A stretch of DNA of 64,000 nt from Candidatus Sumerlaeota bacterium (GTDB lineage: Bacteria > Sumerlaeota > Sumerlaeia > JAFGJS01): positions 1-64,000 of the forward strand of contig JAFGJS010000042.1 of NCBI GenBank assembly GCA_016928995.1, in the 5' to 3' direction. The notes under the pieces are model-generated. The model ran no database searches, was not told the DNA's origin, and saw only the letters and a list, made by a program, of their open reading frames with translations. Positions 3,872-60,612 of this stretch are shown here, one piece after another. Within the stretch, counting starts at the first letter, position 1. Every line of letters begins with the position of its first letter. Both the position numbers and the translations under genes were made by a program.

Positions 3872-4360
3872 ATGAAAAAAAGCGTGTATATTGAATCATC
3901 GATTCCGAGCTATTTAACTGCTCGTCTCAGCCGGGATATCCGGACAGCCGGATGGCAGCAGGTTACCATGCAATGGTGGGATGAATGTCGGTGTGAATAC
4001 GACCTCTTCACTTCAGAACTTGTTATTGCGGAGATTTCAGCCGGGGATGAAGAAGCTGTCGAACGCAGATTGCGAGCAATGGATGGGATTAATGAATTGC
4101 CGATTGACGATGCGGTTGAAACTTTGGCGGAAGAATTGATTAAGAGGGGGGCTCTGCCAAATACAGCTCAGGCGGATGCGATTCACATTTCCGTTGCGGC
4201 AATTCAGGAAATCGATTATCTTTTAACTTGGAATTGCAGACATATCAATAATGCCGCCATGAAACCTGCAATGAGAACAGCGTGCGCGGATCTGGGGTGT
4301 TGCTGTCCGGAAATCTGCACGCCGCTTGAGCTGCTTGGAAAGGAATCCGGCGATGTATAG
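3872..4360 (+). CDS. VapC-family PIN-domain toxin
   Basis: The 162-residue protein belongs to a recognisable VapC subfamily that begins with 'VYIESSIPSYLTAR' and ends with 'YLLTWNCRHINNA'. PIN toxins are Mg-dependent ribonucleases that cut specific RNAs. Candidate acidic metal ligands are Glu8 (an Asp in many PIN proteins), Glu54 in 'VIAEISAGD', and Asp102 in 'AQADAIHIS', with Asn121 near the end of the core. The start ATG 3872 is preceded by a GAAAGAGAG tract. The stop overlaps the start of the next small gene by 8 bases, so the two are translationally coupled, with toxin first and partner second. Confidence 0.85.
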   Translation: MKKSVYIESSIPSYLTARLSRDIRTAGWQQVTMQWWDECRCEYDLFTSELVIAEISAGDEEAVERRLRAMDGINELPIDDAVETLAEELIKRGALPNTAQADAIHISVAAIQEIDYLLTWNCRHINNAAMKPAMRTACADLGCCCPEICTPLELLGKESGDV

Positions 4361-4520
4361 CGATGAAATCATTTCTGAAGTGTGGCGCCATCGAGACGAT
4401 TATGCCAAAAAGCATCAATATAGCCTTAAAAAAATGATCGCTGATTTAAAAAAACGGCAGAAGCGACCTTTTACTCGGATTATTGACCGAAGAGCCTCCA
4501 AACACATGGATGGCATCTGA
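4353..4520 (+). CDS. Putative antitoxin partner of the VapC toxin (55 aa)
   Basis: This 55-residue protein reads 'MYSDEIISEVWRHRDDYAKK' and ends in a basic tail. It resembles the short acidic-then-basic proteins commonly encoded right after this VapC subfamily, which are usually left as hypothetical. The ATG at 4353-4355 lies inside the last codons of the toxin gene and follows an AGGAATCC site. The 8-base overlap and matching size support an antitoxin role, but I do not recognise a named DNA-binding domain in it. Confidence 0.65.
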   Translation: MYSDEIISEVWRHRDDYAKKHQYSLKKMIADLKKRQKRPFTRIIDRRASKHMDGI

Positions 4521-4683
4521 TCGGCAAGCCATCCTTCTTACACTAATTTTTTTCAGCGCGGGATTGAAAATCAGGCCTTTTTTCTTGAGCATGGTTTATA
4601 GTTTTAAAGCGTTGAGGTTGGAGCTGTTGTCGGTGTTGACACTGCCAACCCTTGAGAGTTATGGTTTGGGATGGAAGGTTGAC

Positions 4684-4989
4684 ATGACTGGAATCATCGA
4701 AAATATGCGCGAGCCTATCTCGGAAATTTGCGCGCGGCATGGGGTAGCGCGGCTGTATGTGTTTGGCTCTGCGCTTGGCGATAGCTATGAGCCGGGAGAA
4801 AACGATCTCGATCTGCTCGTGGAATTCGCGCCGATAGAGCAGTATGCGCGGGTGGAGATTTATTTGGCTGCTGGAAGAGCTTCTACGCTGCTGCATACGA
4901 AGATCGATCTAATCATGGCTGGCGCCGTGATGAATCCATATATCGCTCGCGATATCGAGCGGACGAAACAGGTGCTTTATGCCGCGTGA
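4684..4989 (+). CDS. MNT-domain nucleotidyltransferase (MntA-like antitoxin)
   Basis: The 101-residue protein has the minimal nucleotidyltransferase signature: 'YVFGSALGDSYEPGENDLDL' gives a GS followed, 11 residues later, by DxD, then 'LLVEF'. MntA-type proteins neutralise HEPN RNase toxins, in studied cases by adding AMP to a tyrosine of the toxin. The ATG at 4684 follows GGAAGG about 5 bases upstream. A longer in-frame extension to 4483 overlaps the antitoxin gene and looks non-coding. The final codons overlap the start of a HEPN gene fragment, so the antitoxin here seems to have lost its partner. Confidence 0.85.
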   Translation: MTGIIENMREPISEICARHGVARLYVFGSALGDSYEPGENDLDLLVEFAPIEQYARVEIYLAAGRASTLLHTKIDLIMAGAVMNPYIARDIERTKQVLYAA

Positions 4990-23235: not shown

Positions 23236-23544
23236 ATGCAAATCCAAAACCTTGATATACCGGAACAGCAGATTGAAGAATACTGCCGGCAGAAGCGTAT
23301 TCGCAAAATGATGCTGTTTGGCAGCGTTGTTCGAAACGATTTTCGCCCGGAAAGCGACGTTGATGTGCTCGTGGAATTCGAGCCAGAAGCCAGAGTTGGA
23401 TTGATTCGATTTGCAGGAATGGAACTTGAACTGACCGACTTGTTGAAGCGGAAGGTGGACCTGAACACGATCGATTTTATCCATCCGGAATATCGTGATG
23501 AAATTTTGCGAGAGGCGCGACTGATTTATGACCAGGCACAATGA
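23236..23544 (+). CDS. mntA: MNT-domain nucleotidyltransferase (MntA-type antitoxin)
   Basis: The 102-residue protein has the signature 'MLFGSVVRNDFRPESDVDVL', that is GSX10DXD, followed by 'VEF'. MntA-type proteins neutralise their HEPN partner, in studied cases by attaching AMP units to a Tyr near its RNase site. ATG 23236 follows GGAAG. It sits 58 bases after cysD, and its stop overlaps the next gene's start by 17 bases, which points to tight coupling. Confidence 0.9.
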   Translation: MQIQNLDIPEQQIEEYCRQKRIRKMMLFGSVVRNDFRPESDVDVLVEFEPEARVGLIRFAGMELELTDLLKRKVDLNTIDFIHPEYRDEILREARLIYDQAQ

Positions 23545-23875
23545 TGAAGTGCGCCTACGGGATATGTTGAGCCATGCTGAGGAAGCCTGCTCTATGACAG
23601 CAAGCCGATCTTTGGATGATTTGAAAAAAGATCGCATGCTTGAATTGGCGCTTGTTCGCCTTGTTGAAATAATCGGTGAAGCAGCGGCGCGAATCAACGA
23701 AGAGACCAAGGTGAAGTGTGGAGCAATTCCATGGCCGCAAATTGTCGGCATGCGAAATCGTCTCGTGCATGGATATGACAACATCGATCTCAATCTGCTA
23801 TGGGATACAGTGCAGGACGACCTTCCGCTTCTCATCGACGCATTAAAGAAAACTCTCGACAATCTGGAAAAATGA
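23528..23875 (+). CDS. hepT: HEPN-domain RNase toxin (HepT-like)
   Basis: The 115-residue helical protein has the HEPN active-site motif Rx4HxY at 'MRNRLVHGYDNID' (Arg76, His81, Tyr83) and 'VEIIGEAAARINEE' as the conserved third helix. HEPN toxins are RNases that cut tRNA or mRNA. The Tyr is the residue AMPylated by MntA in described pairs. ATG 23528 lies within the antitoxin gene. The stop at 23873-23875 is immediately followed by the cysN start at 23876. The full domain and intact motif distinguish it from the broken HEPN fragment at 4979. Confidence 0.9.
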   Translation: MTRHNDEVRLRDMLSHAEEACSMTASRSLDDLKKDRMLELALVRLVEIIGEAAARINEETKVKCGAIPWPQIVGMRNRLVHGYDNIDLNLLWDTVQDDLPLLIDALKKTLDNLEK

Positions 23876-46898: not shown

Positions 46899-47001
46899 TT
46901 TTGCTTGCTTTTGTTGTGACTTTGCCTCTTGTTCTACAGTAATTTGAGGCAAGGCTGCCTTTCGATTCCGGGCAAGATTAAGAGCAAGAGCAAGAGTGGA
47001 T

Positions 47002-59179: not shown

Positions 59180-60043
59180 CTAAAAAAAGAGATTTTCTTC
59201 GATTCCGGCATTCTTTTTCTCTTGTTCAATTTTGAGGAGTTCTGGACCAATATAAATACGCCTTAACCAGTCGCCATCTAAACCATATCTCTCATCGTAT
59301 GGACCCGACGGAAATTCAGCAGGCAAGTTTATTGAAGCGTCAACATTATCGCAAATAAGCAAACGTAGTATGCATTGCACGGGAAATTTATTATGCGAAT
59401 TGACGCTTAATTTATATAAGACATCAAAGTCATCTTTATCTAATGACGATAATTCTCTGCCTATTTCCTTCTCATGCGCCAGCGTATCACTACGAAACTT
59501 TATATTGCGTCGATGTTTATTAGGATCAATCGATTTTATTACTGCAATGGCGCTAATCGTAGTATTCCAAGCCCGACTCTGGCCATCCCACATCTTTCCG
59601 CCTTTTAAAAAGTCTTCTTCCGGCTCACCACAAGCACCTGTTTTAATATTAACAGGTACTCTCCAACCAAAATCCCCACGCATAGCCGCATATATGATCG
59701 CTGGACCTAGAAGGATGGGTTGAGAGCCATAATGACATAACACCAATATACACGGTTCATTTCTCTTTTTATATTGTTGAAACTTTTCGCGTGCTCCATC
59801 AATTTTATCTCGTATAGGACTGTAAGGATCAAAACCACTAAACCCTGGTTGTGGGTTTTGTGGCTCCCATTCTTTCACCTCAAAACGTGCTGTCTTTCCA
59901 CCTATTTCAAAACTGTAGTCGACAGGCTTTGTAATACCTATGTGGCTTAGATCTTCTTCGTATTTGTATTTGGTAATACCGCGATCTGCAAGATACACCT
60001 CAAATGCCCGCTCAGATATTGTCTTCTGATTCATTTTTTTCAT
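59180..60043 (-). CDS. PD-(D/E)XK-nuclease-like protein paired with an MNT antitoxin-type gene
   Basis: The 287-residue protein has a helix with 'SERAFEVYLADRGI', then 'HIGITKPVDYSFEI' with Asp42 and 'FEVKEW' (Glu55, Lys57), the E...D...ExK spacing of PD-(D/E)XK nucleases. 'EPCILVLCHYGSQPILLG' follows as the typical next strand. The rest has no family I recognise. ATG 60041-60043 follows GAAAG and starts 8 bases after the MNT stop, so the two are co-transcribed. The gene appears AT-richer than mutS beside it, suggesting acquisition. A toxin or restriction-like nuclease is the obvious hypothesis. The fold is inferred from few residues. Confidence 0.6.
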   Translation of the reverse strand: MKKMNQKTISERAFEVYLADRGITKYKYEEDLSHIGITKPVDYSFEIGGKTARFEVKEWEPQNPQPGFSGFDPYSPIRDKIDGAREKFQQYKKRNEPCILVLCHYGSQPILLGPAIIYAAMRGDFGWRVPVNIKTGACGEPEEDFLKGGKMWDGQSRAWNTTISAIAVIKSIDPNKHRRNIKFRSDTLAHEKEIGRELSSLDKDDFDVLYKLSVNSHNKFPVQCILRLLICDNVDASINLPAEFPSGPYDERYGLDGDWLRRIYIGPELLKIEQEKKNAGIEENLFF

Positions 60044-60051
60044 CCATTCTT

Positions 60052-60354
60052 TCAGACATAGACAATACTTTTCAGGATGCTTTGGGCGATGCGCTTGTTG
60101 CGGATGTTCTGAATGCCTGCAGGGGTAAGGACATCGACATTGGCGCCAAGCAGACGCTCCAGATACTCGGCAAACTCGACAAAACGCAGCCCGATAGGCC
60201 GGTTAAATTCCACGACGAGATCAACATCGCTTTCCTTGGTGGGTGTGCCGTTGGCGTATGACCCGAACAGGCCGATTCTTGCCACGCCATACGTGGAAGA
60301 CAGATAAGCGCGATCTTTTTGCAAAGCCTTCGTGATTGTTTCTTGCGTCAGCAT
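60052..60354 (-). CDS. MNT-domain nucleotidyltransferase (MntA-like), partner of the nuclease-like gene
   Basis: The 100-residue protein has 'ARIGLFGSYANGTPTKESDV', followed by 'DLVVEF', giving GSX10DXD with the usual hydrophobic strand. The C-terminus 'VLTPAGIQNIRNKRIAQSIL' is typical of the MntA-like group. ATG 60352-60354 is the start. It ends 8 bases before the nuclease-like gene, in the position where a HEPN toxin is normally found. Confidence 0.88.
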   Translation of the reverse strand: MLTQETITKALQKDRAYLSSTYGVARIGLFGSYANGTPTKESDVDLVVEFNRPIGLRFVEFAEYLERLLGANVDVLTPAGIQNIRNKRIAQSILKSIVYV

Positions 60355-60483
60355 GGTTTGAACCGCTTTCGATTATTCCTATGTAAGTTTAATCTGGCTT
60401 CCCTTTACGAAATCAAGGGATTTTTTTATGAGGATGTATCCTGACAAACTTCGCATATTGAATGTATGTAAAATGATCGCTCC

Positions 60484-60550
60484 TGCCCTTGCTCCTGCTC
60501 TTTGGGATGGACAACACGCTGTTTTTCGAGCAAGAGCAGGAGCAAGAGCA
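60484..60550. repeat. Long inverted repeat of GAGCAA/TTGCTC stutter sequence
   Basis: TTGCTCCTGCTCTT (60489-60502) and AAGAGCAGGAGCAA (60532-60545) form a perfect 14-bp stem around a 29-base loop. The arms extend outward with mismatches. It lies between the MNT gene and the end of the large carboxypeptidase-domain gene. Similar unpaired AGAGCAAGAGCAAGAG sequence occurs at 46980-46998, just before panC. Confidence 0.7.
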
Positions 60551-60612
60551 AGAAAACTCGGATTGAAGCATTCGACGAATGCAATTTCACTCGCCGTGGT
60601 GATCAATCAACG

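Follow-up and report, generated by a model that had tools for sequence, protein, structure and literature searches.

A MntA-like nucleotidyltransferase gene next to a predicted PD-(D/E)XK nuclease gene in Candidatus Sumerlaeota: an apparent one-off neighborhood

Minimal nucleotidyltransferase (MNT) genes of the kind described here normally counter an RNA-cutting (HEPN) toxin. In HepT/MntA (HEPN/MNT, type VII toxin-antitoxin), the MNT enzyme places three AMPs on the tyrosine of the RX4HXY motif (PMC7641770). Combinations with proteins of the restriction endonuclease (REase) fold are also on record, since an archaeal HEPN-T(Parep1/8) was found in an operon with MNT and the REase DUF1626, and a fusion joins HEPN-M with a resolvase-like REase (Anantharaman et al. 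2013, PMC3710099). PD-T7-5, an E. coli anti-phage system from the selection study of Vassallo et al. 2022 (PMC9519451), is listed with a PD(D/E)XK domain (PMC10952713).

The locus compared here with these systems lies in a 64,000-nucleotide stretch of the Candidatus Sumerlaeota contig JAFGJS010000042.1 (the window; Table 1). As in HepT/MntA, an MNT gene with GSX10DXD is the first of two genes, and the sister of this MNT belongs to such a pair. In contrast to HepT/MntA, the gene in second place codes for an unrelated, PD-(D/E)XK-like protein of 287 residues, no HEPN gene adjoins the MNT, and the genes are separated by a gap where those of the true pairs compared overlap. The gap between the MNT stop and the following ORF is exactly 8 bases, as originally stated and now confirmed from the ORF coordinates, with both genes on the same strand. 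The mutS gene is convergent and ends 10 bases beyond the 287-residue ORF. The cases of Anantharaman et al. resemble the window in having MNT near a REase-fold protein, but a HEPN domain is retained in them and their REases are of other families. With such combinations on record, even a working MNT/nuclease pair would be a variant of a noted theme.

Table 1. Positions of the features discussed, numbered from the first letter of the window
Feature	Position	Strand	Basis
287-residue predicted PD-(D/E)XK nuclease, unnamed family	59180..60043	(-)	Relatives, motif, AlphaFold2 fold
D42...E55-x-K57 codons of the 287-residue protein	59873-59920		
E11 codon of the 287-residue protein	60011-60013		
Short frame ATGTCTGAAAGAATGGAT... 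(MSERMDEKNESEDNI, then stop), overlapping the MNT stop	60012..60059	(-)	DNA alignment with L037
MNT, minimal nucleotidyltransferase (MntA-like), 100 aa	60052..60354	(-)	PF01909, PADLOC PDC-S09
GSX10DXD codons of the MNT	60220-60264		Translation
22-nt inverted repeat, GAGCAAGAGC type	60481-60553		
Related copy of the GAGCAAGAGC-type repeat	46972-46994		
Canonical MNT/HEPN pair	23236-23875	(+)	
Lone MNT-like ORF	4483-4989	(+)	
PIN-like ORF	3872-4360		

The MNT gene and the partners of its relatives

The MNT gene proved intact, as the original prediction had it. Its translation carries the motif as G31-S32-x10-D43-x-D45, which may mean that the protein is still under selection, and it matched PF01909 (E=1.6e-16) and the PADLOC model PDC-S09 (3.8e-24). 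The score against NCBIfam MntA_antitoxin was 39 bits, below the 60-bit equivalog cut-off. A HEPN ORF was sought beside the MNT gene and none was found. RX4HXY, the target of AMP addition in HepT/MntA, is absent from the translation of the neighboring 287-residue protein, in agreement with the earlier reading that it has no HEPN motif.

Among 40 genomes of the phylum, the nearest relative of the window MNT was found at the locus designated L037 (60% identical, joined to the window MNT with 100/99 support), and at this locus the gene after the MNT encodes a HEPN protein with RDRLIHHYF. A HepT-type HEPN gene lies directly downstream in 8 of the 10 nearest relatives and in 20 of 35 distinct other MNT ORFs found; for other relatives (e.g. 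L056, L061, and L047), no HEPN was detected. The HEPN gene of L037 begins with ATGTCTAATCGAGCGGAC (MSNRADC...), and the corresponding bases at the window's junction are ATGTCTGAAAGAATGGAT. Beyond the stop codon, approximately 5 of 10 bases match between the two loci, which is not significant alone. The short frame that overlaps the MNT stop thus gives a weak hint of a leftover HEPN start.

Several other features of the window touch on this gene type. A canonical MNT/HEPN pair, whose HEPN carries RNRLVHGY and whose two genes are GC-matched at 47-48%, lies between cysD-like and cysN-like genes. Another lone MNT-like ORF sits beside a PIN-like ORF, and HEPN was not found adjoining it. The inverted repeat upstream of the MNT gene is 91% complementary with a 29-nt spacer, and its related copy shows 3 mismatches.

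The 287-residue protein and its family

No model of Pfam, PADLOC (E up to 1), NCBIfam, or PHROGs matched the 287-residue protein, and direct searches with it in plasmids, phages, viral contigs, and genome contigs returned no relative. A hand-written consensus, which served as a search seed only, found one relative on a Streptomyces plasmid (pairwise E 1e-12); another Streptomyces plasmid match (E=4) was antisense and was dropped. Scanning with the pattern DPYxPIRxKI yielded five relatives from Terriglobia, Nitrospirota, and Acidobacteriaceae, which aligned with the window protein over nearly the full length (E 4e-37 to 6e-24, 29-33% identity). The alignments involved (A3-A5) contain artificial rows to steer the choice of pattern; the pattern scan was their sole product used, and its matches were verified using the window protein itself. 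A profile made from these relatives (A6) detected the family in 9 of 396 Acidobacteriota genomes, 3 of 395 Nitrospirota genomes, 17 of 397 genomes of one acidobacterial order, and 1 of 40 genomes of the window's phylum (only the window's own). The last search, with a wider profile (A9), added one further relative, while scans of viral contigs gave no relative and tblastn searches of plasmids and phages with two family members (L013 and L073) gave nothing. Approximately 25 relatives were found, mostly in Acidobacteriota, at about 22-34% identity to the window protein, and the distribution of the family is patchy across phyla.

Some relatives carry extra N-terminal domains and others stand alone. 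The domains were named by eye, except for the N-terminal HTH of L022, which PADLOC matches to mad1 (8e-7). A recurrent extra N-terminal domain (GKxYPPKQ...FTTMDAxRIL), for which Pfam gave no match, is found on L012 and L016, with a similar one in L067 and L068. The member at L027:1015-2190 is fused to a phosphatase-like HCx5R domain. A distantly related family member at L025:1-2559 is convergent to the mutS 3' end, as in the window, with ~750 bases between them, perhaps by coincidence.

The original prediction took D42...E55-x-K57 for a PD-(D/E)XK site. These residues are present as stated, and in 23 aligned sequences (the window protein and 22 relatives) E11, D42, and I81 are invariant, V56 and K57 are conserved in at least 90% of the rows, and position 55 is either E or D. 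The window protein has all four candidate catalytic residues, and so do nearly all relatives. Given the conservation of D42 and E55-x-K57 in the 22 relatives, the motif is not a chance occurrence. The active-site lysine is replaced in L068 and L076 (EVED and EITQ), which are possibly inactive versions. A bare R-x5-H (RSDTLAH) is also present in the window protein and adjoins a stretch missing from the relatives.

Folding of the single sequence gave a pLDDT of 33 and was unusable; we used instead an AlphaFold2 model based on a 6-row alignment, with a mean pLDDT of 70 and values of 84-89 over residues 11-60. In this model, the order of helices (9-20 and 75-92) and strands (43-47, 50-58, and 98-104) is compatible with the PD-(D/E)XK core. 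The best Foldseek matches in the PDB were SfsA, a RecU-type resolvase, AF1548, Bax1, and the R.BspD6I small subunit, the best E being only 0.047. With VIA, the best match was 2okf, an fdxN element excision controlling factor (Z 7.5, 3.5 Å, 124 residues), followed by BsmI, AF2093, and SfsA, with Vsr lower down. Acetyl-CoA carboxylase rows tied in Z with the nuclease rows and were set aside, as the motif residues indicate PD-(D/E)XK. PDB profile searches found nothing. The best structural matches are thus mainly PD-(D/E)XK enzymes (resolvases, SfsA, an XisH-like protein, Vsr, and restriction enzymes), all of them below firm thresholds. Because the single structural matches are weak, it is the agreement of the fold matches with the family-wide motif that carries the assignment, and on this basis the 287-residue protein is likely a PD-(D/E)XK nuclease, its activity being predicted, much as originally proposed.

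Three of 23 relatives matched the PADLOC model PD-T7-5 at up to 0.1 (best 0.0038); the window protein did not match it at E up to 1. These weak matches led us to search for PD-T7-5-like loci in Acidobacteriota. The PD-T7-5-like proteins of this phylum (L081-L085) have a C-terminal NPxAxxPLP module in common with the window family, and hhalign aligned the two groups with a probability of 96.9 over 91 C-terminal columns. The window protein resembles PD-T7-5 in its N-terminal PD-(D/E)XK-like site and its C-terminal module (NTxxSA ... NPxAxxPLP), and by eye both groups show an early Glu, PD, and then an E-rich strand. The window protein differs in being shorter, in having no PADLOC match, and in the limitation of the profile alignment to the C-terminal columns. 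This supports a putative defense-type role through distant kinship to PD-T7-5, not membership.

Neighborhoods and composition

The original prediction read the two genes as one system in which the MNT controls the nuclease. We scanned all ORFs at 26 loci of the nuclease family, with flanks of at least 1 kb on both sides (except at L013, L066, and L035), using profiles of 25 MNT and 20 HEPN sequences. Neither MNT nor HEPN was found near any of the relatives (0/26), and the MNT/287-residue pair was seen in no other genome examined. The lack of a recurring link between the homologues and MNT genes, together with the HEPN partners of the MNT's own relatives, speaks against such a system, and the neighborhood looks like a one-off rather than a new system. 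As the relatives are at about 22-34% identity, a younger subfamily accompanied by MNT could exist outside the sampled phyla.

Both genes had also been described as looking AT-richer than the neighboring mutS, as acquired genes may be. This holds for the 287-residue gene only, whose GC content (39.7%, GC3 32.6%) is the lowest among all 864-bp windows of the stretch; the MNT gene (GC 51.8%, GC3 60.4%) falls at the 28th percentile and is ordinary. The GC3 difference between the two genes is 0.278 (28 points), and all of 18 true MNT/HEPN pairs lie below this value (maximum 0.183, sd 0.081). The unlike GC3 of the two genes suggests that they arrived at different times.

Origin and meaning of the arrangement

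We consider it most probable, at roughly two chances in three, that the locus descends from a HepT/MntA pair whose HEPN gene is gone, and that an AT-rich gene for a stand-alone PD-(D/E)XK nuclease arrived separately and now lies downstream of the orphan MNT. This reading draws on the HEPN partner of the sister MNT, on the 26 nuclease-family loci in which neither MNT nor HEPN was found, on the unlike composition of the two genes, and on the patchy distribution of the nuclease family. Judging from the one sister locus, L037, the pair would have lost its HEPN gene, and the nuclease gene would have come to lie directly 3' of the orphan MNT. The nuclease would bind and cut DNA in a metal-dependent manner via E11/D42/E55/K57, its substrate most likely being incoming DNA, as a single-gene defense-type nuclease like its distant cousin PD-T7-5. 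The orphan MNT would keep its adenylyltransferase activity, and the nuclease would not be its evolved substrate; the two would be linked only by position and probably also by co-transcription.

Against HEPN loss followed by separate acquisition stand the 8-base gap, the shared strand, and the MNT-first order, which fit a coupled antitoxin-toxin pair, and also the intact GSX10DXD, as the MNT may still be selected. These features and the recorded HEPN/REase-fold combinations around MNT (PMC3710099) would agree with an MNT re-purposed after the loss of HEPN as an antitoxin or regulator of the nuclease, acting by AMP addition or binding in a lineage-specific module. We regard this as quite unlikely, as the pair recurs in none of the 26 relatives, the two genes differ in composition, and the relatives of the nuclease do without MNT, as single genes or fusions. 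The bolder version, a toxin swap within the HEPN/MNT class in which the orphaned MntA was re-paired with a PD-(D/E)XK DNase replacing the RNase and would AMPylate or restrain it, has a slim chance on the sequences compared.

An ordinary single-gene defense or mobile-element nuclease may instead have landed by chance behind a lone MNT gene, so that no HEPN was ever replaced here. HEPN-less MNT genes do exist among the relatives (such as L056, L061, and L047), and two relatives of the nuclease (L072 and L074) adjoin integrase-like genes, but the 60% identical sister MNT is paired with a HEPN gene whose start overlaps it, and we find this course unlikely. Very improbable is a PD-(D/E)XK fold without nuclease function, such as a derivative that binds DNA or has a structural role: the top scores of the structural searches (Foldseek E only 0.047, VIA Z 7.5) and the loss of K57 in L068 and L076 would suit it, whereas the presence of the four candidate catalytic residues in the window protein and almost every relative would not.

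An MNT/nuclease system, if true, would pair MNT antitoxins with a toxin of a new class, and the comparative test argues against it. A useful outcome is a PD-(D/E)XK family, still without a name or a Pfam model and patchily present across phyla, some of whose members are fused to DNA-binding-like domains and whose C-terminal module is common to the anti-phage PD-T7-5. In the locus itself, an antitoxin gene has probably outlived its toxin in nature.
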